DNA of 64,000 bases, taken from contig JAIXWF010000013.1 of the NCBI GenBank assembly GCA_027482185.1, forward strand, positions 558,001 to 622,000. The letters run 5' to 3'. The DNA is from Opitutaceae bacterium. Lineage in GTDB: Bacteria; Verrucomicrobiota; Verrucomicrobiia; Opitutales; Opitutaceae. Under the pieces are notes generated by a model. It was not told where the DNA came from. It made no database searches and was given only the letters and a program-made list of their open reading frames with translations. This document shows positions 6,014 to 36,946 of this stretch, in pieces (positions within the stretch are counted from its first letter, which is position 1; the number at the start of each line of letters is the position of its first letter). A program made the position numbers and the translations under genes.

Positions 6014-6304
6014 ATGAAAACGATCGCCCTGTCTTCCCTGTCCGAGCCGGCCGCCGCAGCGCGGGCCGTGGGGTATCCGTCCGTCAACCAGCGGGGTCCG
6101 CTCCAGGAACCCGACCTCGATGCCTGGATCGCCGCCCGCAGTCCCGCCGGGTTCCGGCCGGAACCGGGACCGGCGGCGCGGCCCGCGCATCCGGCCCGGC
6201 TGGAACGCGAGCGGCTGCGCGCCGCCGCGCGGCGCCGCGGCTTCACCATGCCGCCGTCGGACGCGGCGCTGACGCTGGAGACCGACGCCGCGGACCGCTC
6301 GTAA
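6014..6304 (+). CDS. Hypothetical protein, 96 residues
   Basis: A possible small soluble protein opening MKTIALSSLSEPAAAAR. It is rich in Ala, Arg and Pro, with a Glu/Arg-rich stretch (LERERLRAAARRR) and an acidic C-terminus. No membrane segment or known domain was recognised. There is no good Shine-Dalgarno sequence in front of the ATG. In such GC-rich DNA an open frame of this length can arise by chance, so the call is tentative. It points the same way as the next membrane protein gene. Confidence 0.35.
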   Translation: MKTIALSSLSEPAAAARAVGYPSVNQRGPLQEPDLDAWIAARSPAGFRPEPGPAARPAHPARLERERLRAAARRRGFTMPPSDAALTLETDAADRS

Positions 6305-6377
6305 CCGTTGCGGCACTACGCCCGGAGCCGGCGGAAAGCCGTTGACGGCGGCGGGCGGCGCGCCGCATCAAAGCGCC

Positions 6378-6926
6378 ATGACCCCGCCGCTCGAGATGAA
6401 GGTGCAGCTGCGCGAGCTCGCGCAGCTGTTCAACTCGATGGACCCGTCGCCGTTCCACGACCGCGATCTCGATGCGGCGGCGGAGGCGTTCATCGTCGGC
6501 TGGGCGCGGGAACTGCCGGCGCGGAGCGAACTGGCGCTCACGATCGCGTTGGCGAACCGCCCCGCGGACGCGAAGGCGGCGGAAGTCGGCGAGGCGGTGC
6601 GGCACTATTTCGCGCGGCGGGCGGAGGTGAAGCAGCGGGACCTGCAGAAGCTGCTGCGGCAGGGCCGCACCAGCCTCGGCGTCGGCCTGATTTTCCTCAC
6701 CACCTGCCTGCTCGCCAGCGAGGTGCTGCAAACCATCAGCCAGCGGGCCTTCATGACGGTGCTGAAAGAGAGCCTCATGATCGGCGGCTGGGTCGCGATG
6801 TGGCGGCCGCTGGAGATCTATCTCTACGATTGGTGGCCGATCCGGGCCGAGCGGCTCGTGCTGGAGCGGCTGGCGCGCATGGAAGTGCGGCTGGAAATGC
6901 CGCCGGCGCCGGGCGCGCCGGCATGA
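6378..6926 (+). CDS. Conserved membrane protein of unknown function
   Basis: A 182-residue protein. The N-terminal soluble part (LAQLFNSMDPSPFHDRDLD, then EEFIVGWARE-like AEAFIVGWAREL) and the later MIGGWVAMWRPLEIYLYDWW block recur, as I recall, in a bacterial family with no assigned function. Two hydrophobic segments are visible (SLGVGLIFLTTCLLASEVL and the GGWVAMWRPLEIYLY block), so both termini are probably cytosolic. It lies 22 bases before the AEP cytidylyltransferase frame and may be co-transcribed, but nothing ties it to phosphonate chemistry. The ATG at 6378 is preferred over an in-frame TTG at 6342. Confidence 0.7.
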   Translation: MTPPLEMKVQLRELAQLFNSMDPSPFHDRDLDAAAEAFIVGWARELPARSELALTIALANRPADAKAAEVGEAVRHYFARRAEVKQRDLQKLLRQGRTSLGVGLIFLTTCLLASEVLQTISQRAFMTVLKESLMIGGWVAMWRPLEIYLYDWWPIRAERLVLERLARMEVRLEMPPAPGAPA

Positions 6927-6948
6927 GGGCGGCGGACCGGCATTTGCG

Positions 6949-7749
6949 TTGACGGCGGCGCGCGGCGGCGGCTCCACTCCGCGCGCTTTGCCCGACCCCG
7001 TTTCCAGTTCCCCGCCCGTGGCGATCGTGCTTGCGGCCGGTCTCGGCGCGCGCCTGCGCGCGGTGCAGGCGGAACGGCCCAAGGGTTTTGTCGAGATCGG
7101 CGGCGCGCCGATCATCGTCCGCTCGGTCGCCGCGCTGCGGGCGGCCGGAATCCGCGAGTTTGTCTTCGTCGTCGGGTGGCGCGCGGAGGTCTACCGCGCG
7201 TGGCTGGCGGCCGAGTTGCCCGGCGCCCGCTGCGTGCCGAACGCGGAGTTTGCGTCCACCGGCAGCCTGCGCTCGCTGCTGCTCGGCGCGACGGCGGCGC
7301 CGGGCCGCGACGTGCTCGTCGTGGAATCCGATCTCCTGTACGAGGCCGGGGCGCCGGCGCGGCTGCTGGCGGAGCCGCCGGGAGACGTGCTGCTGGCGAG
7401 CGGATTCACCCGCAGCGGCGACGAGGTCTGGGTTTACGCCGAACCGCCCGGCCGCTTGCGGCGGCTGGACAAGCGGCCGTGGGAGGGGCGGACGCCCGCG
7501 GGCGAATTGGTCGGCCTGACGCGGCTGACGGCCGCGGCGGTCGCGCGTTTGGCCGCGGCGGCCGCGGCGCTGCCCGCGACGGCGCACTACGAGGACGGCC
7601 TGAATGCGATTTGCGGGGAGATCCCCGTGCGGCTGCGGCACGAGCCCGCGCTGGTCTGGTGCGAAATCGACGACCCGGCGCACCTGGAGCGCGCGCGGAG
7701 TGCGATCTGGCCCCGGCTGCAGGCGGCCGCCAAGAATCGGGCCCCATGA
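6949..7749 (+). CDS. pntC: 2-Aminoethylphosphonate cytidylyltransferase (PntC-like)
   Basis: A sugar-nucleotidyltransferase-fold protein of up to 266 residues. It has the nucleotide-binding loop VLAAGLGARL, the downstream ERPKGF lysine and the FASTGSLRSLLLG segment seen in small choline-phosphate/AEP cytidylyltransferases, followed by VESDLLYE and the C-terminal WCEIDDPAHL metal-binding region. PntC couples 2-aminoethylphosphonate with CTP to give CDP-AEP and pyrophosphate. The position as first gene before phnW and pepM, and a CDP-alcohol transferase close by, support AEP over choline phosphate or a sugar phosphate. The start is uncertain: TTG 6949, TTG 6988 or GTG 7018 are all in frame and none has a clear ribosome site. 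It overlaps phnW by 4 bases. Confidence 0.82.
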   Translation: MTAARGGGSTPRALPDPVSSSPPVAIVLAAGLGARLRAVQAERPKGFVEIGGAPIIVRSVAALRAAGIREFVFVVGWRAEVYRAWLAAELPGARCVPNAEFASTGSLRSLLLGATAAPGRDVLVVESDLLYEAGAPARLLAEPPGDVLLASGFTRSGDEVWVYAEPPGRLRRLDKRPWEGRTPAGELVGLTRLTAAAVARLAAAAAALPATAHYEDGLNAICGEIPVRLRHEPALVWCEIDDPAHLERARSAIWPRLQAAAKNRAP

Positions 7750-8843
7750 CTTTGCCGCGGAAGATTCTGCTCAACCCCGGTCCCGCGACGACGACGGACA
7801 CGGTGAAGCGGGCCCAGGTGGTGCCGGACATCTGCCCGCGCGAGGCGGAGTTCGGCGCCGTGGTGGCCGGCGTGCGGGCGGACCTGCTCGCGGTGGCCGG
7901 CGCCGATCCGGCCCGGCAGACGGCGGTGCTCATGGCCGGCTCCGGCACGGCGGCGATGGAAGCGGCGATCGGTTCGCTCGTGCCCGCGGCCGGGCGCCTG
8001 CTGGTGCTGGACAACGGCGCCTACGGCGAGCGCGCGGGCCGGATCGCGGCGCGGCTCGGCGTGCCGGCGACGGTGTGGCGCGTGCCGTGGACGGAGCGGC
8101 CGGATGCGGCGGCGTTCGCGGCGCGGCTCGACGCGGCGGACGGGCCGTTCACGCACGCGTGCTGGGTGCACCACGAGACCACGACGGGCCTGCTGAATCC
8201 GTTGACCGAATACGGCGCGGCGTGCCGGGCGCGCGGCGTCGTCTCGATCGTCGACGCGATGTCGTCGTTCGCCGGGCTCGATCTCCGGTGGGGCGCCGAA
8301 CCCGTGGACTTCTGCGTCAGCAGCGCCAACAAATGCCTGCAGGGCATGGCCGGCGTGGCCTTCGTGCTCGGGGACCGCGCCCGCATCGCGGCGGCGGCGG
8401 CGACGGAGCGGAGCTACGCGCTCGGCTTGGCGCGGCACGAGGCGGCGCTGGCGGCGGGGCAGTTTCCGTTCACGCCGCCCGTGCAGACCGTCTATGCGCT
8501 GGCGCAGGCGCTGCGCGAGACGTTGGCGGAGACGGTCGCGGCCCGCGCGGCGCGGTACCGCGCCTGCTACGAGACGATGCTGGCGGGCCTGACGGCGTTG
8601 GGCTTCGAGCCGCTGCTGCCGCGGGCGCTGCATTCGGGGTTGCTGACGGCGTTCCGCGAACCGGCCCGGCCGGGGTTCACGTTCGCCGGCCTGCACGATT
8701 TTCTCTACGCGCGGGGCATCACGATTTATCCGGGGAAATTGCCCGGGACGGATACGTTCCGCGTGGCCAACATCGGCGCGCTCGAGCCGGCCGACCTCGC
8801 GCAGGCCGTGGCGGCCGTGAAACTTTACCTCGATGGCCGCTGA
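7746..8843 (+). CDS. phnW: 2-Aminoethylphosphonate:pyruvate transaminase
   Basis: A 365-residue class V aminotransferase. It opens with [16 protein letters not shown], the typical PhnW start. [11 protein letters not shown] forms the phosphate loop, and the PLP lysine is K196 in SSANKCLQG, with the conserved aspartate in SIVDAMSSF (D170). The C-terminus has [19 protein letters not shown] as in characterised PhnW. The enzyme interconverts phosphonoacetaldehyde and AEP with alanine/pyruvate. Next to pepM and ppd it should run in the biosynthetic direction. No phnX or phnA degradation gene is nearby, which argues against a catabolic role. The ATG overlaps the pntC stop (ATGA), and its own end overlaps pepM by 11 bases, so the three are translationally coupled. 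Confidence 0.92.
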
Positions 8844-10461
8844 ATCCGCGAACCCCAAGACCCGCCGGCTGCGCGCCCTGCTCGATCCGGCGCGGCTCGA
8901 CTTCATCATGGAGGCGCACAACGGCCTCTCCGCGCGCATCGCAGAGGAGGCGGGCTTCCGCGCGCTGTGGGCGAGCGGGCTTTCCATTTCCGCGGCGCTC
9001 GGCGTGCGCGACAACAACGAGGCCAGCTGGACGCAGGTGCTCGAGGTCGCCGAGTTCATGGCCGACGCGACGACCGTGCCCATCCTGATCGACGGCGACA
9101 CGGGCTTCGGCAACTTCAACAATTTCCGCCGCGTGGTGCGGAAACTCGAGCAGCGCGGCATCGCGGGCGTGTGCATCGAGGACAAGGTCTTCCCGAAGAC
9201 GAACAGTTTCCTGCGCGGGCAGGCGCAGCCGTTGGCCGACGTCGACGAATTCTGCGGCAAGCTGCACGCGGGCAAGGCGGCGCAGACCGATCCGGATTTC
9301 GTGATCGTCGCCCGCACCGAGGCGCTGATCGCGGGGTGGGGCCAGGCCGAGGCGATCCGCCGCGCGGAGGCGTACCGCCGCGCCGGGGCCGACGCCATCG
9401 TCGTGCACAGCGCGCAGTCGCGGCCCGACGAGATTCTGGCGTTTCTCGACGAATGGGCGGGCCGGCATCCGGTCATCTTGATCCCGACGAAGTACCACAC
9501 GACGCCGACCGAAGTCTTCGCCGTGCGCAAAGTCTCCGCGCTGATCTGGGCCAACCACCTCATGCGCGCCGCGCTGGGCGCGATGCAGGCGACGGCCGCG
9601 CGGATTTACCGGGAACGCAGCGTGACGGGCGTCGAGGAAACGGTGGCGCCGCTGCGGGAGGTTTTCCGGTTGCAGGGCGACGAGGAACTGCGGCTGGCGG
9701 AGGAGAAATTTCTCGCCGCGGCCCCGCGGCGCAGCGCGGTGATTCTGGCCGCCACGCGCGGTGGGCCGGCGCTGCACGCGCTGACCGGCCAGGTGCCCAA
9801 GACGCTGCTCCGCGTCGGCGGCCGCTCGCTGCTCGACCGACTCTGCGACAACCTGCAGGCCCTCGACGTGCGCGACATCGCCGTCGTGGCCGGCTACCGG
9901 AAGGAAACCATCGCGCGGCCCGGCGTGGTGCGCGTGGACAACGACCGCTGGGCCGAGACGGGCGAGGCGGCGTCGCTGGCGCTGGCGGCGGAGCGGTTGG
10001 CGGGCCCCTGCCTCGTGGGTTTCGGCGACCTGCTGTGCCGTCGGCACATTCTGCAGGCGCTGCTCGACGACCCGGCCGATCTCGTGATCGCCGCGGACCG
10101 GAGTATCCGCCGCGACGCGGGCGATGCCCCGCGGGCCCGGGACGTCGTCAAACTCAGCGCCGGCCCCGCGCCGGCCTTTCTCGACGCCGAGATTACCGCC
10201 ACGGCGGCGGCGTTCACCGCGGACACGGCGGCCTTCGACGCGGAGTGGACCGGCTTGCTCAAATGTTCGGGGCAGGGGGCGCAGTGGCTGCGCGAGGCGC
10301 TCGCGCAGACGATGGCGAAACCGGGGGCGGAGGCGCTTGGTTTGACGGATGTCCTGGCGGCGCTGCTCGCGGCGGGGCGGCCGATCAAGGTGCATCTCGT
10401 GAGCGGCGACTGGACCACGATCGAGAACGCCCTCGATCTCGCCGAGGCGAGCAATCTCTGA
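8833..10461 (+). CDS. pepM: Phosphoenolpyruvate mutase fused to a nucleotidyltransferase domain
   Basis: A 542-residue bifunctional protein. Residues 1-295 form the isocitrate-lyase-like PEP mutase with the diagnostic [10 protein letters not shown] (116-125) and the metal-binding DGDTGFGN. This enzyme makes the C-P bond, converting PEP to phosphonopyruvate. Residues about 300-542 form a second nucleotidyltransferase domain ([23 protein letters not shown]). Its glycine loop departs from the classical LAAGxGxR, reading LAATRGG, as I recall for other PepM-fused domains. The fusion suggests that product activation is physically tied to C-P bond formation. The cell then has two candidate cytidylyltransferases, this one and the stand-alone PntC. 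The stop codon lies at the left end of a dispersed repeat. Confidence 0.92.
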
Positions 10462-10624
10462 GGCAGGATCATGCCGTTGAGAGTTCAGAGTTGAGGGTTG
10501 AGAGATCGATCCGCCGAACCACGGAAAACGCAGCCGAAGCCAACAACCTGATGAACCGAACCGTTTTGCTCTCAATTCTCAGCCACGCTCTCTCAACTTC
10601 ATGAGTTCGGCCATGATGCTGCCG
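10461..10624. repeat. Dispersed ~150-bp intergenic element, copy 1
   Basis: Lies between pepM and ppd. It begins at the pepM stop (TGAGGCAGGATCATG) and ends CATGATGCTGCC, giving 12-base terminal inverted repeats with one mismatch (10462-10473 and 10612-10623). Inside these are GTTGAGAG-type units on the left and their complement (CTCTCAACTT) on the right. A core GATCGATCCGCCGAACC follows the left units. By hand alignment 10461-10611 matches 33672-33821 at about 126 of 151 positions. Confidence 0.8.
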
Positions 10625-10659
10625 CCGACCGGAGCGGCCGAAACCGCCGTTTACCCGAG

Positions 10660-11814
10660 ATGATCACCGCGACCGAATTTCTCGACGCTTGCCACGCGCG
10701 GGGCGTGCGTTTTGTGACGGGCACGCCGTGCTCTTACCTGAAGCCGCTGATCAACGGCGCGATCGACGATCCGCGTTTCCGGTTTCGCGACGCGGTCAAC
10801 GAAGGCGACGCCGTCGCGTTGGCCGCCGGGGCGGTGCTCGGCGGCGCGCGCCCGCTCGTGATGTTCCAGAACTCGGGCCTGGGCAACGCGGTCAACGCGC
10901 TGACGTCGCTGTGCCAGCCGTTCCGTGTGCCGGTGTTGCTCGTGGTTACGCACCGGGGCGAGCCCGGCGGCGAAGCGGACGAGCCGCAGCACGAGCAGAT
11001 GGGCCGCATCACGACGGCGCTGCTGGAGACGCTGGAGATTCCGTGGGCGCGGTTTCCCGAACTGCCGGCGGACGTCGGTCCGGCGCTCGACGCGGCGCTG
11101 GCGGAGATGACGGCGTCGGCGCGGCCCTACGCCTTCGTGATGCGCAAGGACGCGGTGGCGGCGCAGAAACTCAAGGCGCGGCCGGCGGCAACGGCCCCGG
11201 GCGAACGGACGGTGGCGGTGCGCGAAGACCTGCGGCGGGAGCCGGCGGCGCGGATGTCGCGGACGGAAGCGTTGCAGGCGGTGCGCGCGGCGCGGCGGCC
11301 GGACGAAGTGCTCTTGGCGACAACGGGCTACACCGGCCGCGAGCTGTATGCGTTGGGCGACGAGCCGTGGAATCTTTACGTGGTGGGATCGATGGGTTCG
11401 ACGAGCGCCTTCGGGCTGGGATTGGCGCTGCAGCAACCGGACCGGCCGGTGACGGTGATCGACGGCGATGGCGCCGTGCTCATGCGGATGGGCAATCTCG
11501 CGACGGTCGGGGCCTATGCGCCGGCGACGTTCCGGCACATCATCCTGGACAACGAGGCGCACGATTCGACGGGCGGACAGGCGACGGTGAGCCGCGGGGT
11601 GATGTTCGCGGCGGTCGCGCAGGCGTGCGGCTACCGGCGGGCGGTTTCGACCGACGACGCGGAGGTGTTTGCGTCGGCCTTGGCGGCGCCGAGCGAAGCC
11701 GGTCCGGAACTCATTCATCTGCGAATCCGGCCGGGCGCGCCCGACGGATTGCCGCGGCCCAAGGTGACGCCGGCGGAAGTGTTTGCGCGGCTGCGCGCGT
11801 GGGTGGCGAAGTAG
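10660..11814 (+). CDS. ppd: Phosphonopyruvate decarboxylase
   Basis: A 384-residue thiamine-diphosphate enzyme. The N-terminal PYR domain has GTPCSYLKPLING and the catalytic glutamate in VNEGDAVALAAG. The PP domain carries the ThDP/Mg2+ motif starting GDGAVLMRMG at 269 and running to D297-N298. The enzyme decarboxylates phosphonopyruvate to phosphonoacetaldehyde, which pulls the unfavourable PEP mutase equilibrium forward and supplies PhnW. Length and motifs match characterised Ppd. It follows pepM after a 198-base gap filled by the dispersed repeat, so it may be in the same transcript or have its own promoter. It is convergent with the CDP-alcohol transferase gene, with 17 bases between the stops. 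Confidence 0.92.
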   Translation: MITATEFLDACHARGVRFVTGTPCSYLKPLINGAIDDPRFRFRDAVNEGDAVALAAGAVLGGARPLVMFQNSGLGNAVNALTSLCQPFRVPVLLVVTHRGEPGGEADEPQHEQMGRITTALLETLEIPWARFPELPADVGPALDAALAEMTASARPYAFVMRKDAVAAQKLKARPAATAPGERTVAVREDLRREPAARMSRTEALQAVRAARRPDEVLLATTGYTGRELYALGDEPWNLYVVGSMGSTSAFGLGLALQQPDRPVTVIDGDGAVLMRMGNLATVGAYAPATFRHIILDNEAHDSTGGQATVSRGVMFAAVAQACGYRRAVSTDDAEVFASALAAPSEAGPELIHLRIRPGAPDGLPRPKVTPAEVFARLRAWVAK

Positions 11815-11831
11815 AGGCGCCGAACCAGGTC

Positions 11832-12824
11832 TCAAAGCCGCGCGCCGGAGCGCAGGGCCGCGAGCGTGCGGAAGAAATCGTTGCCGCCGCGCAGCAGGAC
11901 AACGGCGAGCACGACCGCGGCGGCGGCGATTTGGCGCTCCGGCGCGGGGTCGAACAGGAGGGCGCCGGCGGCGGCCCCGACGACGGCGCCGGCCGCGGCG
12001 GCATCCCAGCGGCACAGGGGCCGGCGGAGCAACCGCGCCGCGATGACTTTGCCCTCGTGGCAGGCGCCGACGGCGACGAGCAGCAGGCCGGCCCACGCCG
12101 TCGGCATAGCGCCGAAATTCCGCCAGGCGAGAATCGCGACGAAGAGGGGGCCGAGGCCGGCGAAGTCCCCGGGATGGTGCAGCAGGCCGCGCATGCCGCC
12201 GAGGGCGGCGAGGCTGCCGAGGGTCAACGCGGCCATGAGCAGGCCCGCGAGCGAGAGCGGGCCGATCAGCGGGGCGGTCAGCCAGGCGGGGCCGAACACG
12301 ACGGTGCCGACGCAGGCCGCGGCGGCGACGACGATGCCCTCGATGATGCCGAGGGCACCGAGGTGCACGAAGCCGGCGCGATAGCCGTGGAGAAACGTCG
12401 CGAAATGCAGGAACGAGACGACGGCAGTGGCGGCGAGCACGAGCCAAGGCGGTTGCTGCAGCGCGAGTCCAAAGCCCAGCGGCAGCAGCGGCACGCTGAC
12501 GGCGTCGAGCCAGTGGTCCAGCAGCTCGCCGGTCCGCGACGTGCGCCCGGTGTGCCGGGCGAACATGCCGTCGAGGCAATCGCAGAGCATGAAGAGAAGG
12601 TTGCCCGCCGCGAAGGCGAGGAGCGCGGCGGGATGGCCGGCGGGCAGCAGGAGCACGGCGGCGAAGCCGGCCCAGGCGGAGAACTGGCCGACCAGCGTGA
12701 GTTGGTTGGGCGTGAGCGTGCGCGGCAGCCGGCGGACCAACGGGTCGAGGACGGGCCCCTGCAGCAGCCGCAGCAACAGAGAGCGGTCCTCGAAACGGTA
12801 TTCGTAGTGCGGTTCGCCGGGCAT
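11832..12824 (-). CDS. CDP-alcohol phosphotransferase, probable CDP-AEP:lipid/glycan transferase
   Basis: A 330-residue polytopic membrane protein. The full CDP-alcohol phosphotransferase signature is present: D82-x2-D85-G86-x2-A89-R90-x8-G99-x3-D103-x3-D107, which binds the CDP moiety and two metal ions. Upstream is the usual interface segment RTLTPNQLTLVGQ. In the context of pntC-phnW-pepM-ppd the likely donor is CDP-AEP, and the acceptor may be diacylglycerol or a hydroxylated lipid, giving a phosphonolipid. Acceptor identity is inference. Eukaryote-like length and topology (EPT1/CPT1 style) fit an aminoethyl-head transferase. The start is uncertain: ATG 12824 is preferred because it opens directly on MPGEPHYEYRFEDRSLLL; ATG 12899 is in frame. 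Confidence 0.85.
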   Translation of the reverse strand: MPGEPHYEYRFEDRSLLLRLLQGPVLDPLVRRLPRTLTPNQLTLVGQFSAWAGFAAVLLLPAGHPAALLAFAAGNLLFMLCDCLDGMFARHTGRTSRTGELLDHWLDAVSVPLLPLGFGLALQQPPWLVLAATAVVSFLHFATFLHGYRAGFVHLGALGIIEGIVVAAAACVGTVVFGPAWLTAPLIGPLSLAGLLMAALTLGSLAALGGMRGLLHHPGDFAGLGPLFVAILAWRNFGAMPTAWAGLLLVAVGACHEGKVIAARLLRRPLCRWDAAAAGAVVGAAAGALLFDPAPERQIAAAAVVLAVVLLRGGNDFFRTLAALRSGARL

Positions 12825-13243
12825 CGGGGGGAGCGGTGCGCGGACGAAAGCGGCACCGGGCGCGAACTCGCCGCCTTTCCGCCCGCGGCGCAATCCCATT
12901 TCGAACTTTCCGGCCGGCGAGAGCCAGGTGCTGCCGCGCGATCCCGACTTCGCCGCCGGGCAGTGGTGGGGGGGCTGGGGCGGCTTGCACCGGGCGGCGA
13001 CGCGCGGCGATGGGATCCGGGCGGCGCTTGCTGCCGTGAGGTCGGGCGGCAAAGCGGAGAACGTTTCCGGCTCGCGTGAGAGTTTGGGCGCGGCCGGACC
13101 CGCGCGTGTTTCCGTCGAGCGGGCATGATCGAGCGACCGTGATGGACTTGCGGCGGTTCGGCCGCTCTCGTCTTCGGATACCCCGCGGGGCCAAGTCGTG
13201 CTCCGGCTAAGTGCGGTTTGCCCCAACCTCGATTTCCCTCCCC
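12825..13243. other. Divergent intergenic region, no gene seen
   Basis: A gap of 419 bases between the minus-strand transferase and the plus-strand oxidoreductase. One minus-strand frame stays open through most of it, but its composition (Arg/Pro/Ala, no domain) looks like GC-driven read-through. It presumably holds the two divergent promoters. No repeat family, hairpin terminator or RNA gene was recognised. Confidence 0.4.
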
Positions 13244-14593
13244 ATGAAACGCCGTCACTTCCTCGCCACGCTCGGAACTTTGCCCGCCGGCAGCGTGCTC
13301 GTTGCCGCGACTCCGCCGCCGACGGTGCGCCGGCTCGCGGCCGACGTGCTGGTGATCGGCGGCGGGTCGGCCGGCGCGATCGCCGCGATCCAGGCGGCAC
13401 GGCTCGGGGCGAAGACCATCCTGGTCGAAGCGGGCAGCCAACTCGGCGGCACGACGACGACCGGCGGCGTCGATTTCCCGGGCCTGTTCCACGCCTGGGG
13501 CAAGCAGGTCGTTGCGGGCATCGGCTGGGAGTTGGTCAAGAAAACGGCGGAGCTGAACAACGACGAGCTGCCGGATTTCACCGTGCCGACCGGCCGGCAG
13601 CACTGGCGGCATCAAGTGCGGATCAACGGCCAGCTTTACGCCGCACTCGCCGAGGAAGCCTGCGTGCAGGCCGGCGTGCAGCTGCGTTACTACGAGTCTC
13701 CGCTCACGGTCGAGGAAACCGCCGGCGGCTGGCGCGTGCGGCTCGTGGGCAAGGGCACGATGGTCGATGTGACGGCGAAGCAAGTCGTCGATTGCACGGG
13801 CAGCGCCACCGCGGTGGGACTGGCGGGCTTTGCGCGGATGAGGGAAGAGGACCGCCAGCCGGGGACGCTGATCTACCGTGTCGGCGGCTACAATCCGGCG
13901 GCGCTCGACCCGAATGTGCTGAAGGCGCTGCAGGAGAAGCACGCGGCCGCGGTGAAGTCCGGGGTGCTGAAGCGCACGGACATCAACGGCAGCATTGCCG
14001 GCTGGCTCGGCAAAGGCGGCGAAAGCGGAAACCACATTGTCGGCGCCGACGGAACGACGTCGGAATCGCACACGGAGACGAACATCGCGGGCCGGCAGTC
14101 GTTGCTGCGGGTGCTGCGTTTTCTGCAGCAGGAGCCGGCGCTGGCGCTGATGGAAATCGAGCGGCTCCAGCCCGAGGCGGGCATCCGCGAAACCTACCGG
14201 ATCGTGGGCGAGACGACGGTCACGGTGGCGGACTACGAAGGCGGGCGCGGGTTTGCGGATGCGGTGTCGCATTCGTTCTATCCGATCGATCTGCACTTCG
14301 AAGGCGGCGTGCGGCCGAAGCATTTGAACGAGGGCACGGTGCCGACGGTGCCGCTCGGGGCGCTGATTCCCCGCGGGAGCAAGAACTTGCTCGTGGCGGG
14401 GCGTTGCGTGAGCAGCGATCGGCTCGCAAATTCGGCGCTGCGGGTGCAGGCGTCGTGCATGGGAATGGGGCAGGCGGCGGGCGCGACCGCGGCGTTGGCC
14501 GCGAGCAGCGGAACGACGCCGGCAGCGGTGCCGTTGGCGGACCTGCGGTCGACGCTGGCGAAGCACGGGGCGATCGTGCCGCGCACCGCTTGA
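13244..14593 (+). CDS. Tat-exported FAD-dependent oxidoreductase
   Basis: A 449-residue protein with a twin-arginine-type leader (MKRRHFLATLG). After about 30 residues comes the dinucleotide-binding motif VLVIGGGSAGAIAAIQAA and the ILVEAGSQLGGTTTTGGVDF stretch characteristic of the FAD_oxidored family (PF12831-like). A second FAD contact is seen near the C-terminus (NLLVAGRCVSSDRLANSALRVQ, split by the conserved AGR). Such proteins act on unknown small molecules in the periplasm and are common in Verrucomicrobiota and Planctomycetota, often with polysaccharide or sulfatase genes. No redox partner is adjacent. The ATG was chosen because it begins the Tat signal. Confidence 0.85.
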   Translation: MKRRHFLATLGTLPAGSVLVAATPPPTVRRLAADVLVIGGGSAGAIAAIQAARLGAKTILVEAGSQLGGTTTTGGVDFPGLFHAWGKQVVAGIGWELVKKTAELNNDELPDFTVPTGRQHWRHQVRINGQLYAALAEEACVQAGVQLRYYESPLTVEETAGGWRVRLVGKGTMVDVTAKQVVDCTGSATAVGLAGFARMREEDRQPGTLIYRVGGYNPAALDPNVLKALQEKHAAAVKSGVLKRTDINGSIAGWLGKGGESGNHIVGADGTTSESHTETNIAGRQSLLRVLRFLQQEPALALMEIERLQPEAGIRETYRIVGETTVTVADYEGGRGFADAVSHSFYPIDLHFEGGVRPKHLNEGTVPTVPLGALIPRGSKNLLVAGRCVSSDRLANSALRVQASCMGMGQAAGATAALAASSGTTPAAVPLADLRSTLAKHGAIVPRTA

Positions 14594-14676: not shown

Positions 14677-17247
14677 ATGCCTACCCCGCAGGTTACCCGT
14701 CGTGAGTTTATTTCCGAAGCGGCCGTCGCCGGCACGGCCTTGGCCTTGGCGCCGCGCCTCGCGGCGGCGCCGGCGGCAACCGAGTTTCGCAGCAACTGGC
14801 ACGTGGTGCCGGATCGCGCGTGGGCGGGGCCGGAGTTCTGGACGAATCCGCTGCAGGACTGGCGCGTGGCCGGCGGGCGGTTGGAATTGGTGAAGGCGGC
14901 GCCGGCGCGGAATGTGCACGTGCTCACGCGCGAGCTCGCGGCGGGCGCGGGCACGTTGACGATGCAGGTGCGGCTCGGGCGGCCGGGCACGGAAGGGATT
15001 GCCGGCGGCAAAGGATCGGCCGGCTTCAACGTCGGGGTCGTCGGGCCGCTGAAGGAATACCGCAACAGCCTGATCTTCGGCACCGGGTTGAATTGCGGCC
15101 TGCGGGCGCGCGGCGAGTTGTTCATCGGCAACGGCCCGGAGGCGAAGTCCGCGCCGGTGGCGTTGGCGGCGCGCAATGCCGTGGAGTTAAGGCTCGAATT
15201 GGAAACGCCGGCGGGCGGCGGCGCGACGCGGTTGCGGCTGGCGGCGCACGATGCGGCGGACGGCACGTTGCTCGCGGCGGTGGAGCGCGCGGATTTGCCG
15301 GCGGCGATCGCGGGCAATCTGGCGCTGGTGGCGAATTTCGGCGCGGCGCCGATGGGTGGCGGCGCGGCGGCGGGGGCCGCGGCGGCGAAGGCGGCCGCGA
15401 ATGCGGACCGTTGGTGGTTCGCGGATTGGCGGATCGGCGGGAGCAAAGTCGCGGCGCAGCCGGACCGCGCGTTCGGTCCCTTGTTTTTCAACCAGTACAC
15501 ATTGCATGCGCGCACGCTGAAGATGGCGGTGCAGCTGCCGCCGCTCGCGGCGTCGGATGATCGCAAAGTGAAGCTGCAGGTGCGCCGCGGCACCGCGTGG
15601 GCGACGGTGGCCGAGGCGGAGCAGGATCCGGCGGGCCGCGTGGCGTTGCTGCGGGTGGAAAACTGGGACGACACCGTCGATGTGCCGTACCGCGTGACGG
15701 GCACGTTGCGCACGACGGATGGCAAGATGACGGAGCATGTTTTGGCGGGCACGATCCGCCGGGACCCGGGCGCGTCGCATCCGTTGGCGGTGGCGGATCT
15801 GTCGTGCAACGCGCACTTCGCGTTTCCGAATACGGCGGCGGCGGCGAGCGTGCTGAAACTGAATCCGGACCTCGTGGCTTTCACGGGGGATCAATATTAC
15901 GAATCGACGGGCGGCTACGGCGTGGACCGCAGCGGCGGAGAGTATTCGATGTTGGATGCGTTGCGGAAGTGGCTGATGCACGGCTGGACCTGGCGCGAGC
16001 TGACGAAGGACCGCCCGAGTGTCTCGATCCCGGACGACCATGACGTTTACCACGGCAACCTGTGGGGGCAGGGCGGCACGAAGGCGCCGGGCAGCGAGCC
16101 GCCGGCGGAAGCGAAGGGCGGCTACAAGATGACGGCGGACTTCGTGAACGCCGTGCACCGCATGCAGACGGCGCACCATCCCGATTCGCCGGGCAAGCCG
16201 GGCGAGCAGGGCATCACGGCCTATTACGGACCGCTGACGTACGGCCGCGTGAGTTTCGCGGTGCTGGCGGACCGGCAGTACAAGTCGGGCCCGGATGGAA
16301 AAGTGCCGGCGACGACGAGCGGGCGCGCGGACCACGTCGTGGATCCGAAGTTCGATCCGAAGACGGCGGACCTGCCCGGGCTCGAGATGCTGGGCCAGGC
16401 GCAGACGGCGTTTCTCCGGGATTGGACGAAGGACTGGCGCGGCGCCGACATGAAGGCGGCGATCTCGCAGACGATCTTCACGGCGATGGCGACGCACCAC
16501 GGTCCGCGGGACGAATATCTGGTCGCGGACTACGACACGAACGCGTGGCCGCAGACCCCGCGCAACGCGGCGGTGAAGGAATTGCGGCGCGTCTTCGCGT
16601 TCCATTTGGCCGGCGACCAGCATCTGCCGGCGATCGTGCATTACGGCGTGGACGCGCACCGCGACGCGGGCGTGGCCTTTGCGTCCCCGGCGGTGAACAA
16701 CCTCTACTTCCGGCGCTTCAAGCCGGTCGGCGGCGGCGGGCCGACGGGCGATTTCCGCGACAGCTTCGGCCATCCGCTGACGGTGATCGCCTGCGCGAAT
16801 CCGAAGCAGGAGATCCGGCCGGGCGTGCTCGACGCGGAGATGGACAAATCGGCGGGCTTCGGCCTCGTGCGATTCGATACGGTGGCGCGCACGATCTCGG
16901 TGGAGTGCTGGCCGTTGCTGGCGGATCCGTTGCAGGCGGGCACGCAGTTTCCCGGTTGGCCCGTGGTGGTGACGCAGTCCGCGAATTACGCGCGCAAGGC
17001 GGCGGCGCAATTGCCGGAGCTGCGGATCACCGGGATGGCGAAGCCGGTGCTCGAGGTCGTCGACGAAGCGAGCGGCGAAACGGTCTACGGGCTGCGGTTG
17101 CCGGGAACGACATGGCGGCCGCCGGTGTTTGCCGCGGGCAATTACACCGTGCGCCTGACGGAACCGGAAACCGGGAAACGGCACGAGACGAAGGGCGTCA
17201 AGGCCGAGGCCGGGAGCACGGCGGTGTTGCGGATCGCGGCGGGCTGA
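14677..17247 (+). CDS. Tat-exported PhoD-like alkaline phosphatase/phosphodiesterase
   Basis: An 856-residue protein opening with a Tat leader (TRREFISEAAVAG, AxA cleavage near residues 25-30). Residues 35-280 form an all-beta region resembling a laminin-G-like or carbohydrate-binding fold, and an Ig-like stretch follows. The metallophosphatase part has TGDQYYE, SIPDDHDVYHGNLWG and AGDQHLPAIVHYG, which match metal ligands of the PhoD family (PF09423). It lacks the simple PhoD architecture because of the large N-terminal extension and a C-terminal beta domain (about 780-856). Substrate could be phosphodiesters or phospholipid heads. The neighbouring phosphonate locus is suggestive only. Its start lies 83 bases after the FAD oxidoreductase, probably in one transcript. 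Confidence 0.82.
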   Translation: MPTPQVTRREFISEAAVAGTALALAPRLAAAPAATEFRSNWHVVPDRAWAGPEFWTNPLQDWRVAGGRLELVKAAPARNVHVLTRELAAGAGTLTMQVRLGRPGTEGIAGGKGSAGFNVGVVGPLKEYRNSLIFGTGLNCGLRARGELFIGNGPEAKSAPVALAARNAVELRLELETPAGGGATRLRLAAHDAADGTLLAAVERADLPAAIAGNLALVANFGAAPMGGGAAAGAAAAKAAANADRWWFADWRIGGSKVAAQPDRAFGPLFFNQYTLHARTLKMAVQLPPLAASDDRKVKLQVRRGTAWATVAEAEQDPAGRVALLRVENWDDTVDVPYRVTGTLRTTDGKMTEHVLAGTIRRDPGASHPLAVADLSCNAHFAFPNTAAAASVLKLNPDLVAFTGDQYYESTGGYGVDRSGGEYSMLDALRKWLMHGWTWRELTKDRPSVSIPDDHDVYHGNLWGQGGTKAPGSEPPAEAKGGYKMTADFVNAVHRMQTAHHPDSPGKPGEQGITAYYGPLTYGRVSFAVLADRQYKSGPDGKVPATTSGRADHVVDPKFDPKTADLPGLEMLGQAQTAFLRDWTKDWRGADMKAAISQTIFTAMATHHGPRDEYLVADYDTNAWPQTPRNAAVKELRRVFAFHLAGDQHLPAIVHYGVDAHRDAGVAFASPAVNNLYFRRFKPVGGGGPTGDFRDSFGHPLTVIACANPKQEIRPGVLDAEMDKSAGFGLVRFDTVARTISVECWPLLADPLQAGTQFPGWPVVVTQSANYARKAAAQLPELRITGMAKPVLEVVDEASGETVYGLRLPGTTWRPPVFAAGNYTVRLTEPETGKRHETKGVKAEAGSTAVLRIAAG

Positions 17248-21992: not shown

Positions 21993-23609
21993 TCACAGGC
22001 CCAAAGCGCGGGTCCGAGCGAAAAACTCCCCCAAAATCGGCTCGTTGGCGATCTCGCTCCACGGGCGGTTGGAGGACACGCGGACAAACAATTGGTCGCC
22101 GGAATGCCGGAAACCGTAGCGCCAGGCGAGCTGCAGCAGCGCGACGGCGGAGTAGGGATCCTGGTAGGTGATCGGGCGGCCGTCGTAGAGGTGCCAGAAC
22201 CAGACGAACTGGGGCCGTTCGTTGGCCTGGAAACGGCGGTGCTCGGCGTCGGACAAAGTGCGTCCGGCCAAGGGCAGATCGACCCGCGGGGTCGGGTTGG
22301 CCAGCGGCGACCAACCGGCGCCGGGCCAGCAGGCGTCGGGGGTGTGCGAGGCGACGAGACTCACGGGGGCCTGGCCGGCGCGCCAGTAGGCGACGTAGAT
22401 GATGATCTCGGTCGAAACGGAGCCCGGCCCCGCCCGGACGTAGTGGCGTTGGGCGAGGTGGTCGGTCTTCAGCGTGCCGCGGAACTCGTACAGGTCGCTC
22501 GACTTGACGGACCAGCCTTCGGCCGAGGCCGGCAGGAGCGCGAAGAGGTCGGGCACCGGCGCCTGGACGCGGGTGGACGGGCGCGTGTTGAGAAAAAAGA
22601 AAACGGCGAGGGCCGTCGCCGCGGCGAGACTCCCGGCCAGGGCGGCCTGGCGAACGCGGCCGGCGGGACGGACGGGGTCCGCGGGCGGCGGCGGGGCGGG
22701 CGAGTCGGCCGGGGCTTTTTCCCGGCGCTCCAGCAGGAGCGCGAGGCCGCCGAGCAGGCCGGCGGTGATGCCGAGGACGGCGAAGCCGGTGGCGTCGTGC
22801 CACGTGCCGGCGATGTCGATGCCGGCGTTGGCGAGGAGGGTGAGCCCGAGGGAGCGGATGAAGTTCATCAGCAGCGCGAGCGGGGCGGAGAGCCCGATGA
22901 TCAGGGCGCGGGCCCAGGGCCGGCGGACGAGCGTGGCGGAGAAAAAGAGCCCCGCGAAGACGCACGAGATCAGGCTGCGCACGCCGCTGCAGGCGTCCTC
23001 GACGCCGACGGTGGCGGTCGCGAGATCGATGAGGTTGCCGTGGCGCATCGCGGCGATGCCCAGCAGGTGCAGGGACTGCAGGACGAGTTCGCTGACCCAC
23101 AGCTGCAGGGTGAGCGTGAGGCGCGTGTAGGTGCCGGGCGGGATCGGCGTGGCGAGCAGCCAGAGCGCGATGGCGATGCCGGCGGTCCAGTTTACCCGCA
23201 GCAGGCCGACGCCCTCAGCGGCGAAGACGACGAGCCCGGCCCCGAGGAAGGCCGCGAGGCTGAGCGCGAGCATCACGTTGACCAAGGCGTGCGACCAATC
23301 GACGGCGGCGGCGTAGAGCCCGGCCATGCCGAGGGCCCCGAGCCCGATTCCCAGCAGCGCGGCCAAAGCAAAACGCGATCCCGGGCCGGTCTGGATGCGC
23401 CGGTCGGTGCCGGCGGTGCGGCTCTCGTGCAGGAGCAGGGCGAACAGCAACGGCATGAAGAAGCCGTGGGACAAATCGGGGTTCGATTTCCATTCCGGCC
23501 ACAGCCGGAGACTCAGGGCCGCGACGGCGGCGAGCAGCGCGACGGCGGCGAACTTGCCGGGCGCGGAGAGGCGGCGGACGGCCGCGGAAAACGGTTCGGC
23601 CGGCGTCAT
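21993..23609 (-). CDS. Exosortase fused to an EpsI domain
   Basis: A 538-residue polytopic membrane protein. The exosortase core occupies residues 1-295 with the three catalytic residues in place: C207 (GVEDACSGVRS), R252 (MNFIRS) and H271 (TWHDATGF). Residues about 340-538 form a periplasmic EpsI-like domain. Exosortases recognise short C-terminal PEP-CTERM-type signals, cleave them and help attach the proteins to exopolysaccharide. No target with an obvious PEP-CTERM tail is encoded in this window, so substrates must lie elsewhere. The Wza/Wzc-type exopolysaccharide operon at 34.8-39.8 kb is a plausible functional partner. The ATG overlaps the stop of the upstream TPR protein. Confidence 0.92.
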   Translation of the reverse strand: MTPAEPFSAAVRRLSAPGKFAAVALLAAVAALSLRLWPEWKSNPDLSHGFFMPLLFALLLHESRTAGTDRRIQTGPGSRFALAALLGIGLGALGMAGLYAAAVDWSHALVNVMLALSLAAFLGAGLVVFAAEGVGLLRVNWTAGIAIALWLLATPIPPGTYTRLTLTLQLWVSELVLQSLHLLGIAAMRHGNLIDLATATVGVEDACSGVRSLISCVFAGLFFSATLVRRPWARALIIGLSAPLALLMNFIRSLGLTLLANAGIDIAGTWHDATGFAVLGITAGLLGGLALLLERREKAPADSPAPPPPADPVRPAGRVRQAALAGSLAAATALAVFFFLNTRPSTRVQAPVPDLFALLPASAEGWSVKSSDLYEFRGTLKTDHLAQRHYVRAGPGSVSTEIIIYVAYWRAGQAPVSLVASHTPDACWPGAGWSPLANPTPRVDLPLAGRTLSDAEHRRFQANERPQFVWFWHLYDGRPITYQDPYSAVALLQLAWRYGFRHSGDQLFVRVSSNRPWSEIANEPILGEFFARTRALGL

Positions 23610-34786: not shown

Positions 34787-36946
34787 TCAGGTCTGCGCGC
34801 CGTAGTATTTCTTGTAACTCCGGTAGTACCGGTAGTTCGAGTAGTACTCGATGCGGCGGGGAGAGAGACCGTTGAGCACGACGCCGAGGACCTCGTTCTT
34901 GCCGTTGCGGAGGGCGCGCATGTAGAGGCGGATGTGTTTCCGGTAGGCGCGGTTGAAGCGGCAGACGTAGATGACTTCGTCGATGCGCTCGGCGATGAGC
35001 AGGGAGTCGGTGACGGCGCCGAGCGGGGGCGAGTCGACGATGACGAGATCGTACTCGCGCTTGAGGCGCTCGAGGAGCTGGCCGAAGAGCGGATTCTCGA
35101 GCAGTTCCGTCGGGCTCTTGGAGCGGCCGCCGGAGCAGAGGAGGGAAAGATTCTCGCTGATCTTGATGATGCCGAGGTCGGGATTGGTCGCGAGTTCGCC
35201 TTCCATCGCGCCGCCGCTCTCGAACCAAGTGATGAGGCCGGCGTTGTTCTGCTGCTTGAAGTGGCGGTGCAGCATCGGGCGGCGCAGGTCGCAGTCGACG
35301 AGCAGCGTCTTCTTGCCGTGGCGGGCGAAGCTGCCGGCGACGTTGCAGGAGATGAGGGTCTTGCCCTCGCCGGGAATGGTGCTGGTGACGAGGAGGGACT
35401 TCGGGAAATCGAGCTTGGAGTGGATTTTGACCGAGCTGTAGACACTCAGGAAGGCTTCGACCCCGGGGGCCTGTTTGCTGTCGACGAGGAGCGTGTACTT
35501 CTCGTCGTCCTTCATCGCGGCGAGGTCGGGGATGATGCCGAGCAGATTGGCGCCGATGAACGATTCGACGTCCCAGGCGCTCTTCACGCGGTCGTCGATG
35601 AAGCTGAGGCCGATCGCGACGCCGAGGAAAACAAGGACGCCTATGCCGATGGCGGTGCGGGTGATCTGGGCCTTGTCGGGCGAGATCGGGGAGCCGTTGA
35701 CGGTGGCGCGGTCGAGCGGATGGACGGGGATCTTCTCGATGTTCTTGACCGTGCGGGTTTCGTTGAGGCGGCGAAGGATGTCGTTGTGGTTGGTGCGGGA
35801 GGCGTCGGCTTCGCGGCGGAGCGTGTTGTACTCGATGGCCATCGCGGAGAGCTCCATGGAGGCCTTTTCCTGCTTGGCGTATTCGCCCTCGTAGGTGGCG
35901 AGGAGTTTGCGGGCCTCGGCCTGGCGGGCCTTGATCTCGGCGATGGCGAAGGCGACGGCCTTGTTGAGGTCGGCCTCGGTGACGGCGATCTCGTTGCTCT
36001 TTTCGATCATCCGCGGGTGCCGTTCGAAATAGCGCTCCGAAAGGAGATTCAGTTCCTGCTGCAGCTTGCTGAGCTGGGCGCGGAGCACGGGCACGGCGCC
36101 GTGGTTGGCGATGTCGGCGATTTCGAAAAGGCTGCGGTTCTCGGCCTGGAAGGATTCGATCTGCTTCACCTTTTCGTCGAGGGCGAGGAGGTTGAGGCGT
36201 TTCTCCTCCTTCATCGTGCCCGCCTTGCGGAGGGACTCGGTGACCATGTCCTTGGTGCTGTCGAGGGAGATGAGGTTCTTCTCGCGCATGTAGCGCTGCA
36301 GGTCCTGTTCCTTCGCCTCGGATTCCTTGCGGAGGCGCTCGGCCTGCTCGGTGAGCCAGACGATGGCGGTTTCGTTGCGGCCGCCGGCGTTGTCGAACAG
36401 GTGGGTCATGAACGCGTCGACGTAGCGGTTCGCGATCAGGGCCGCGGCCTCGGCGTCCTCGTGGACCACGCCGATGCCGATGAGGTAGCTGGCGCGGGTG
36501 GAAATCGGGGACATGCTGCCGAGCGAGATCGGCACGGTCTCGGGGTCGGTGCCGGGCGGGGCGCGTTTCAGGGCGGCGCGGCGGAGGATGGCCTTCTCCT
36601 CGGGCTTGAGCGATTCCATCACGCGGGCCTCGAGTTTCCGGCTCTGGAGCAGCTGGATGTAGGTGTTGAGATCGACGTCGGAGCGCACCGTCTGGTCGAT
36701 CACGCCCTGGGTCGTGACGACGGTCTCGGGTTTCTCGAACTGCATCGTCGCCTTCGCGTAGTACGTCGGCGTGACCTGCATCTTCTTGTAGAAGAAGCCG
36801 ACCGAGACGAGGACGGCGAGGGGCAGGGCGAGCCAGAGGCGTTCCCGGAGGATGATGTAGTAGTCGCGCAGCGTCCGCCGTTCGGCGACATCGTCGTCGC
36901 GGTTGGCGTTGGGCGGGGGAGAATTTTTCGCGTGCGCGTCGGCCAT
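34787..36946 (-). CDS. Polysaccharide co-polymerase/tyrosine autokinase (Wzc-like)
   Basis: A 719-residue inner-membrane protein. The Wzz-type chain-length domain has transmembrane helices near 37-52 and 430-449 with a long coiled-coil periplasmic part (about 195-390). The C-terminal BY-kinase has Walker A (IPGEGKT, 524-530), Walker A' (LLVDCDLRRP, 548-557) and Walker B (LVIVDSPP, 634-641). The tail is a tyrosine cluster with eight Tyr between 701 and 715, the autophosphorylation site. The protein controls polymer length and export of an exopolysaccharide with the Wza-like lipoprotein encoded 11 bases upstream. Confidence 0.94.
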   Translation of the reverse strand: MADAHAKNSPPPNANRDDDVAERRTLRDYYIILRERLWLALPLAVLVSVGFFYKKMQVTPTYYAKATMQFEKPETVVTTQGVIDQTVRSDVDLNTYIQLLQSRKLEARVMESLKPEEKAILRRAALKRAPPGTDPETVPISLGSMSPISTRASYLIGIGVVHEDAEAAALIANRYVDAFMTHLFDNAGGRNETAIVWLTEQAERLRKESEAKEQDLQRYMREKNLISLDSTKDMVTESLRKAGTMKEEKRLNLLALDEKVKQIESFQAENRSLFEIADIANHGAVPVLRAQLSKLQQELNLLSERYFERHPRMIEKSNEIAVTEADLNKAVAFAIAEIKARQAEARKLLATYEGEYAKQEKASMELSAMAIEYNTLRREADASRTNHNDILRRLNETRTVKNIEKIPVHPLDRATVNGSPISPDKAQITRTAIGIGVLVFLGVAIGLSFIDDRVKSAWDVESFIGANLLGIIPDLAAMKDDEKYTLLVDSKQAPGVEAFLSVYSSVKIHSKLDFPKSLLVTSTIPGEGKTLISCNVAGSFARHGKKTLLVDCDLRRPMLHRHFKQQNNAGLITWFESGGAMEGELATNPDLGIIKISENLSLLCSGGRSKSPTELLENPLFGQLLERLKREYDLVIVDSPPLGAVTDSLLIAERIDEVIYVCRFNRAYRKHIRLYMRALRNGKNEVLGVVLNGLSPRRIEYYSNYRYYRSYKKYYGAQT

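Follow-up and report, generated by a model that had tools for sequence, protein, structure and literature searches.

A predicted 2-aminoethylphosphonate operon with a convergent CEPT-like transferase gene in an Opitutaceae bacterium

A 64,000-nucleotide stretch of the Opitutaceae bacterium assembly GCA_027482185.1 (contig JAIXWF010000013.1, positions 558,001 to 622,000; hereafter the window, numbered from its first letter) carries four genes on the forward strand and a fifth convergent to them, which together very probably produce a 2-aminoethylphosphonate (AEP) head group, convert it to an activated form with CTP and link it to a lipid of the membrane or a glycan of the cell surface. That the window genes lead from phosphoenolpyruvate (PEP) to CMP-AEP is a conclusion we hold with high confidence, judging from the encoded sequences; transfer of AEP to a lipid by the CEPT-like enzyme appears somewhat probable. 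In the proposed pathway, PepM would convert PEP to phosphonopyruvate, Ppd would decarboxylate the latter to phosphonoacetaldehyde, PhnW would aminate this compound to AEP and PntC would combine AEP with CTP to yield CMP-AEP. The convergent CEPT-like membrane enzyme would then place AEP on the hydroxyl of a diacylglycerol or ceramide-like lipid, giving a phosphonolipid. The whole would constitute a phosphonyl-tailoring (Pnt) operon combined with a Kennedy-type transferase. Homology and gene neighbourhood are the basis on which we infer the transfer step and its acceptor. The features are as follows.

6949..7749, + strand: pntC, predicted CTP:2-aminoethylphosphonate cytidylyltransferase; start TTG at 6949 or GTG at 7018, stop at 7749; match to 6pd1.
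7746..8843, + strand: phnW/aepZ, predicted 2-aminoethylphosphonate transaminase, here in the synthetic direction; over the TIGR03301 cut-off, match to the C-terminal half of 6pd1.
8833..9720, + strand: pepM, predicted phosphoenolpyruvate mutase domain (aa 1-296); TIGR02320, EDKxxxxxNS motif, 1m1b.
9721..10461, + strand: second nucleotidyltransferase domain, fused to PepM (aa 297-542); PF12804, LicC 1jyk.
10660..11814, + strand: ppd, predicted phosphonopyruvate decarboxylase, single chain; TIGR03297, 9iz3.
11832..12824, - strand: CEPT-like CDP-alcohol phosphotransferase, proposed CMP-AEP:lipid AEP-transferase; motif DCLDGMFARHTGRTSRTGELLDHWLD, PF01066, 8gyw.

The initial annotation had described pntC-like, phnW, pepM and ppd genes on one strand with a convergent CDP-alcohol transferase; all five are present, intact at the positions given above and over their family cut-offs. 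The pntC and phnW genes overlap by 4 bases and phnW and pepM by 11; the whole pepM gene (8833-10461, + strand) encodes 542 residues and is separated from ppd by 198 bp, and ppd converges with the transferase gene across a 17-bp gap. A scan of the 6200-13300 interval returned 0 promoter and 2 terminator sites, no excess over shuffled sequences. Intergenic repeats of the TTCAACTTTC type occur in the window at 447-477 and 10479-10495 (4 matches, three of them overlapping, against 0.03 expected); one of them sits in the pepM-ppd gap.

The three enzymes proposed to make AEP were all assigned by family models. PepM scored 368.1 bits with the NCBIfam equivalog TIGR02320 (cut-off 319.55) and contains, at residues 116-125, the EDKxxxxxNS motif that sets PEP mutases apart from other members of the isocitrate lyase family (PMC6697681). 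The solved PEP mutase 1m1b matches it over residues 8-295 (E=6.7e-116), and it is the sole PF13714 match at E<=0.001 in its own genome, which is 97.98% complete. Ppd exceeds the TIGR03297 cut-off (403.8 vs 312.5 bits) and matches both the beta (E=7.2e-31) and the alpha (1.4e-17) subunit of the phosphonopyruvate decarboxylase 9iz3. PhnW passes TIGR03301 (PhnW-AepZ; 385.8 vs 360.8 bits) and PRK13479 (320.9 vs 296) and falls below the other PhnW model, TIGR02326 (315 vs 400.8 bits); in the PDB it comes closest to the C-terminal half of 6pd1 (E=6.3e-82). The earlier statement that degradation genes are lacking stood for C-P lyase, as PhnJ found no match in the genome. For phnX, there were two weak phosphonatase matches (30.6 and 28.3 vs 220 bits) in a search that lacked a positive control, since none of 14 control genomes passed either; these negatives cover PhnJ and phosphonatase and do not extend to phnA, phnY and phnZ.

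The activation step was assigned from the pntC product, which passes PF12804 (49.7 vs 27 bits). Its closest PDB match is the Treponema denticola enzyme Tde-PntC (6pd1, E=2.6e-34 over residues 5-244), the next being LicC (1jyk, 2.4e-8); thus, PntC and PhnW best match the two halves of a single solved T. denticola protein. In a hand-counted phmmer alignment, K25, E106 and E195 of PntC (translation of 7009-7746) correspond to K25, E104 and E196 of the T. denticola enzyme. Glu104 and Glu196 of Tde-PntC are described as positioned to contact the AEP amine, and LicC has Asp105 and Asp192 (PMC6697681). Because 6pd1 lies far ahead of LicC and both glutamates are conserved, CMP-AEP is the likely product of the window enzyme. 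Family cut-offs, the catalytic motif and these substrate-pocket residues therefore back the initial proposal that PepM, Ppd and PhnW make AEP and that PntC activates it.

The product of the convergent gene contains the motif DCLDGMFARHTGRTSRTGELLDHWLD, which matches the pattern D..DG..AR........G...D...D and has a histidine in DH..D. This residue, following the third aspartate, is presumably the general base. Together with a PF01066 (CDP-OH_P_transf) score of 42.4 vs 22 bits, the motif bears out the assignment of a CDP-alcohol phosphotransferase with the family signature. The protein lies far below the cut-offs of CDP-diacylglycerol-dependent equivalogs (NF040950, 45.9 vs 180; NF045883, 43.1 vs 170) and missed pssA (22.4 vs 107), ClsA (19 vs 240) and pgsA (18.5 vs 109.1 bits). 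The genome encodes a separate PgsA (122.2 vs 109.1 bits) and a separate PssA (120.6 vs 107); since these pass the cut-offs that the window protein misses by far, the latter was rejected as the genome's own PgsA or PssA. Its best PDB matches were the CEPT1 structure 8gyw (3.8e-14), 8ul9 (1.7e-10) and 8ero (5.3e-9), with the Mycobacterium tuberculosis phosphatidylinositol-phosphate (PIP) synthase 6h53 trailing at 1.7e-4. An AlphaFold2 model (mean predicted local distance difference test score, pLDDT, 70.3; predicted template modelling score, pTM, 0.70) gave only four Foldseek matches at E<=0.001, all of them to CEPT1/CPT1 (8gyw, 1.3e-7, TMq 0.72), other CDP-alcohol enzymes in the list starting at E=0.012. 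These matches suggest that the predicted enzyme acts in the manner of CEPT1/CPT1, taking the phosphate of an amino alcohol from its CDP-linked form and placing it on the hydroxyl of a lipid, and this likeness, in sequence and predicted fold, favours a lipid as the acceptor.

The surroundings of pepM in other bacteria were analyzed by scanning a contig collection (84,980 species by its description) with a PepM alignment, which gave at least 58 loci. Setting aside seven that lack the full motif in an open reading frame (ORF) of >250 aa (L071, L073, L074, L076-L079) left 51, with 0.93 Mb examined in all and several stretches shorter than 20 kb. Genes in these relatives came from a home-made codon-bias caller that fails at lower GC; L051, L110 and L111 were read by tblastn. 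Among the 51 EDKxxxxxNS loci listed, 42 have a nucleotidyltransferase domain fused to PepM, 40 have ppd, 29 phnW and 20 a separate pntC. A CDP-alcohol transferase lies within 6 kb of pepM in 17 of these loci, where about one would be expected in 0.93 Mb from the 7 PF01066 genes in the 6.43 Mb of our genome; the Poisson P is 1.4e-15, rising to 2e-5 for an assumed expectation of five, in both cases ignoring relatedness, and some lineages are indeed related (L028, L038 and L068, all Myxococcales/Polyangiaceae, have one CDP-alcohol subtype). Fourteen of the 17 linked transferases listed belong to other subtypes and three are CEPT-type with DH..D, found in an Opitutae metagenome-assembled genome (MAG; L034, order pntC-phnW-CEPT-pepM-ppd), a Cyclobacteriaceae MAG and a Myxococcales MAG (L056). 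All five genes occur in 8 of the 51 loci listed (L032, L033, L034, L036, L044, L051, L053 and L056); for this count Ppd and PhnW had to reach 150 bits, PntC had to reach 30 bits and outscore the fused domain, and the transferase was recognised by its motif. A small membrane ORF at 6378-6926 of the window was rejected as a part of the system: neither Pfam nor NCBIfam models matched it, and the 58 PepM loci listed contain nothing homologous to it at E<=1e-4. A separate observation concerns L008 (genome G050), where 1501-2373 encodes an unfused PepM relative with one in-frame TGA within the match, which may be the gene's own stop.

The domain fused to PepM had been overlooked by the initial annotation. 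The last ~245 residues of the protein (297-542) form a second NTP_transf_3 domain (PF12804, 44.4 vs 27 bits), nearest in PDB to LicC (1jyk, E=2.2e-6). Its signature is altered, reading AATRGG as against AAGLGAR (AAGxGxR type) in PntC. In eight hand-chosen fusions (window, G503, L034, G010, L022, L024, L046 and L060) the AA[TS]RG, PK, GD.L and G.W motifs are conserved throughout and EW.G in seven. Since all eight share the altered AA[TS]RG, it is a feature of the subfamily and not a mark of decay, and in view of the conserved motifs the idea of a dead remnant was set aside. Fused and separate nucleotidyltransferases coexist in 20 of the 51 PepM loci among the matches listed, an arrangement described for three oral anaerobes (PMC6697681). 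In genomes G023 and G426 the AEP genes are phnW-pepM-ppd and no separate pntC was found within 20-kb stretches; therefore the fused domain may be the activating enzyme there, or pntC may lie at another site.

Two sets of genes point to possible acceptors. In G503 (same family) and G023 (same genus) the AEP genes adjoin a GT4 glycosyltransferase gene followed by Stealth, inside a large export cluster that also contains a further glycosyltransferase gene, DevB/DevC/DevA-kind ATP-binding cassette (ABC) exporter genes, TolC and PhyH; GT4, Stealth and PhyH are family-confirmed, and DevBCA, TolC, HlyD, KAS and acyl carrier protein (ACP) are our own labels unless backed by Pfam. A similar cluster without AEP genes is found in G062, a genus mate of G503. 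The genes called in L106-L109 include none that resembles pntC or licC. The genome under study has a counterpart, again without AEP genes and unlinked to the AEP operon (C19:200-217 kb; L112:1-16829), with GT4, Stealth (PF11380, 1.4e-36), a GINT1_N-type transferase, a CDP-alcohol enzyme, ABC/TolC-like exporter genes and PhyH. The second set lies at C19:284-291 kb (L114:5364-11976) and comprises genes for a ketosynthase, an ACP, a LicD-family protein (286 kb; 8.8e-8), a myo-inositol-phosphate synthase (PF07994, 1e-51), a PIP-synthase-like CDP-alcohol enzyme below its cut-offs (NF040950, 112.5 vs 180; NF052561, 94.2 vs 350), a GNAT protein and a PAP2_3 protein that resembles phosphoinositol dihydroceramide synthase (4.7e-40) but stays below the cut-off (137.9 vs 480). 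In Bacteroides thetaiotaomicron, inositol sphingolipids are described as made by myo-inositol-phosphate, PIP and phosphoinositol dihydroceramide synthases (PMC9246714). In G010, a 47-kb contig joins AEP genes with genes for a CEPT-like enzyme, an ACP-like protein, a ketosynthase and an alpha-oxoamine synthase; it also encodes a desaturase that contains the domain of sphingolipid delta-4 desaturases. The alpha-oxoamine synthase was rejected as proof of sphingolipid synthesis, being closest to bioF (350.9 vs 426.45) and below serine palmitoyltransferase (293.1 vs 640), which leaves the sphingolipid argument in G010 to the neighbouring Lipid_DES-type desaturase alone (PF08557). The homologue of the synthase on contig C22 of our genome matches serine palmitoyltransferase best, below the cut-off (391.4 vs 640). 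Elsewhere in the window, exopolysaccharide-export-like surroundings were seen at 21993-23609 and 34787-36946 (exosortase EpsH with DUF3485; a chain-length/AAA protein with Wzz just below cut-off).

The distribution of the genes in relatives gave a mixed picture. PepM is patchy (8 of 189 genomes), and a CEPT-like gene was detected at E<=1e-15, with the single window protein as query, in 3 of 189, our genome being included in both counts. In a 387-genome sample of the phylum, where tallies are lower bounds (five and three candidates scored per genome), at least 7 genomes have a CEPT-like gene, at least 6 have PepM and 2 have both (our own and G503, where the CEPT-like gene lies 3.2 kb from pepM). 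When 28 selected genomes were searched more fully (E<=1e-10), 13 gave a CEPT-like match, among them G000, G010, G022, G023, G503, G062, G066, G069, G099 and the genomes of L034, L051 and L056; seven PepM-less genus mates in this set gave none.

A number of observations weigh against AEP transfer by the window enzyme. The AlphaFold2 model was built from a four-row alignment and is of moderate confidence. The protein is divergent, with 19-31% identity to ten other members, and in a tree of 15 CDP-alcohol proteins no supported clade joined it to other PepM-linked enzymes; a clade of PepM-linked CEPT proteins was dropped, the deep forks of that tree being unsupported. Its gene lies outside the operon, in convergent orientation. 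The Fisher test for co-occurrence of PepM and CEPT-like genes in the 387 genomes gave p = 0.004 with our genome and p = 0.076, not significant, without it. The five-gene set sought in other genomes did turn up, in the 8 loci listed; the phylum-wide association held only with our genome included. Five of the seven CEPT-positive genomes of the phylum sample (G022, G062, G066, G069 and G099, all of the same family) have no PepM match at E<=1e-80, and therefore AEP is not the general donor of the CEPT-like family. Conversely, the search at E<=1e-10 drew no CEPT-like match from the PepM-bearing G024, G050, G148, G149, G164, G296, G412 and G426, PepM-positive G241 gave only a weak partial one, and in G023 the CEPT-like gene and pepM are on different contigs. 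Finally, the phosphoinositol-dihydroceramide-synthase-like PAP2_3 gene was found in 7 of 189 genomes, our own included (G000, G022, G023, G062, G066, G069 and G099), and all seven carry a CEPT-like gene, with or without PepM; G010 has a CEPT-like gene and not that PAP2_3 gene. The CEPT-like family therefore tracks the inositol-sphingolipid-type gene better than it tracks PepM, which raises the possibility that a system of this type uses AEP as an optional head group. In its fullest form, this proposal would have the lineage make an AEP-capped inositol-phosphoceramide-type glycolipid, the window supplying the head group and the unlinked genes at C19:200-217 and 284-291 kb building the lipid; we consider this unlikely, though worth stating.

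These points bear on where AEP goes and on what the CEPT-like enzyme does. The claim that a membrane transferase moves AEP from its CDP carrier to a lipid or polysaccharide is plausible insofar as a CEPT1-type enzyme recurs beside pepM in unrelated bacteria; it is weakened by the CEPT-like genes of five PepM-less family members and by the Stealth and LicD genes encoded elsewhere. AEP could be made and activated as proposed and be delivered by Stealth or LicD to a glycan, either an exported polysaccharide or a glycolipid head, the CEPT-like enzyme having another donor. The position of the AEP genes inside the GT4/Stealth/export clusters of G023 and G503 agrees with such a route, as do the Stealth-bearing counterpart cluster and the LicD-family gene of our genome, the CEPT-like genes of the five PepM-less relatives and the LicD-like or glycosyltransferase neighbours reported in oral anaerobes (PMC6697681). 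However, the neighbour of the window operon is the CEPT-like gene, and no adjoining glycan transferase was seen among the called genes, part of which were scanned; moreover, in L034 and L056 the AEP genes have CEPT in their midst, and the stretches of 21.6 and 12.3 kb covered there yielded no Stealth homologue. We regard delivery to a glycan as possible but doubtful.

Alternatively, the CEPT-like gene might encode an ordinary Kennedy-pathway enzyme for phosphatidylethanolamine or phosphatidylcholine that stands beside the AEP operon by chance. Its nearest solved relatives use, by their names, CDP-choline and CDP-ethanolamine, and the PepM-less relatives that carry such genes fit this explanation too. 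The choline/ethanolamine kinase family, however, had no match in our genome (a weak argument, the control search being positive in only 5 of 14 genomes), PssA, over its cut-off, provides the usual route to phosphatidylethanolamine, and CEPT-type genes are repeatedly linked with pepM in unrelated bacteria, all of which makes a chance neighbour quite improbable. Least probable of all, and very improbable, is that the operon serves to make a small phosphonate that diffuses away, its CMP-activation resembling that in the fosfomycin and FR-900098 pathways. Cytidylyl activation is known from antibiotic pathways (PMC6697681), but PhnW and an AEP-type PntC indicate AEP as the end point, and inspection by eye of the surrounding called genes, part of which were scanned, revealed no peptide synthetase, oxidase or resistance gene. 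Beyond the cluster, the window encodes a PhoD-like phosphatase with a twin-arginine-like start (RREF) at 14677-17247. The reading we prefer is still that of an AEP head group transferred to a lipid by the CEPT-like enzyme.

The designation of the cluster as an unusual biological system proved overstated, for clusters of this type are already in print, as PepM-nucleotidyltransferase plus PntC (Rice et al. 2019, PMC6697681) and in a CDP-alcohol version (Nostoc II, 2018, PMC5987646). The Pnt clusters that Rice et al. describe in Treponema denticola, Atopobium rimae and Olsenella uli share with the window a PepM-nucleotidyltransferase fusion, genes for AEP synthesis and another nucleotidyltransferase at a distance of one or two genes; T. 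denticola has PntC and the transaminase in one protein, whereas in the window they are encoded by adjacent overlapping genes, and the neighbours there are LicD-like phosphotransferases or glycosyltransferases instead of a CEPT1-type enzyme (PMC6697681). The cluster of the lichen cyanobiont Nostoc II and its Burkholderia homologue resemble the window in having pepM, an NTP transferase, ppd, an AEP transaminase and a CDP-alcohol phosphatidyltransferase; they were interpreted by their authors as phosphonolipid synthesis genes. The Nostoc II cluster has in addition a 2-oxoglutarate Fe(II) oxygenase and hpnL, and the likeness of its CDP-alcohol enzyme is taken here at the level of the family (PMC5987646). 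Bacteriovorax stolpii has sphingophosphonolipids, membrane lipids whose head group contains a C-P bond, as predicted here, and the available portions of PMC5648825 and PMC6148460 do not name the transferase. A lead to that enzyme may come from the same family: in the Bacteriovoracaceae loci L032:2941-6813 and L073:2910-4871, pepM has as neighbours a PntC-like gene (45 and 32 bits) and the gene of a CDP-alcohol transferase that belongs to a different subtype (GR.IDG.VD).

The steps beyond C-P bond formation are termed enigmatic in the abstract of Rice et al. (PMC6697681), and the accessible part of the open-access PMC literature yielded no characterised bacterial enzyme for AEP transfer from CMP-AEP to an acceptor. 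For this step the CEPT-type gene, which other bacteria carry in the midst of their AEP genes, offers a concrete candidate, and the linkage of AEP genes with Stealth/export genes and of CEPT-like genes with inositol-sphingolipid-type genes names testable acceptors. With eukaryotic CEPT1/CPT1 (8gyw, 8ul9, 8ero and 9uet) the window enzyme shares the predicted fold and D..DG..AR........G...DH..D, and with CPT1 8ul9 an N-terminal Y.Y...DRS.L stretch; it differs in its predicted donor, CMP-AEP, and has 19% identity in the Foldseek alignments. Glycoinositolphospholipids of Trypanosoma cruzi carry AEP, and an AEP-capped inositol-phosphoceramide-type glycolipid, if made here, would be their bacterial counterpart. 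AEP is likewise described on glycosylphosphatidylinositol anchors (PMC5648825, PMC3471836).

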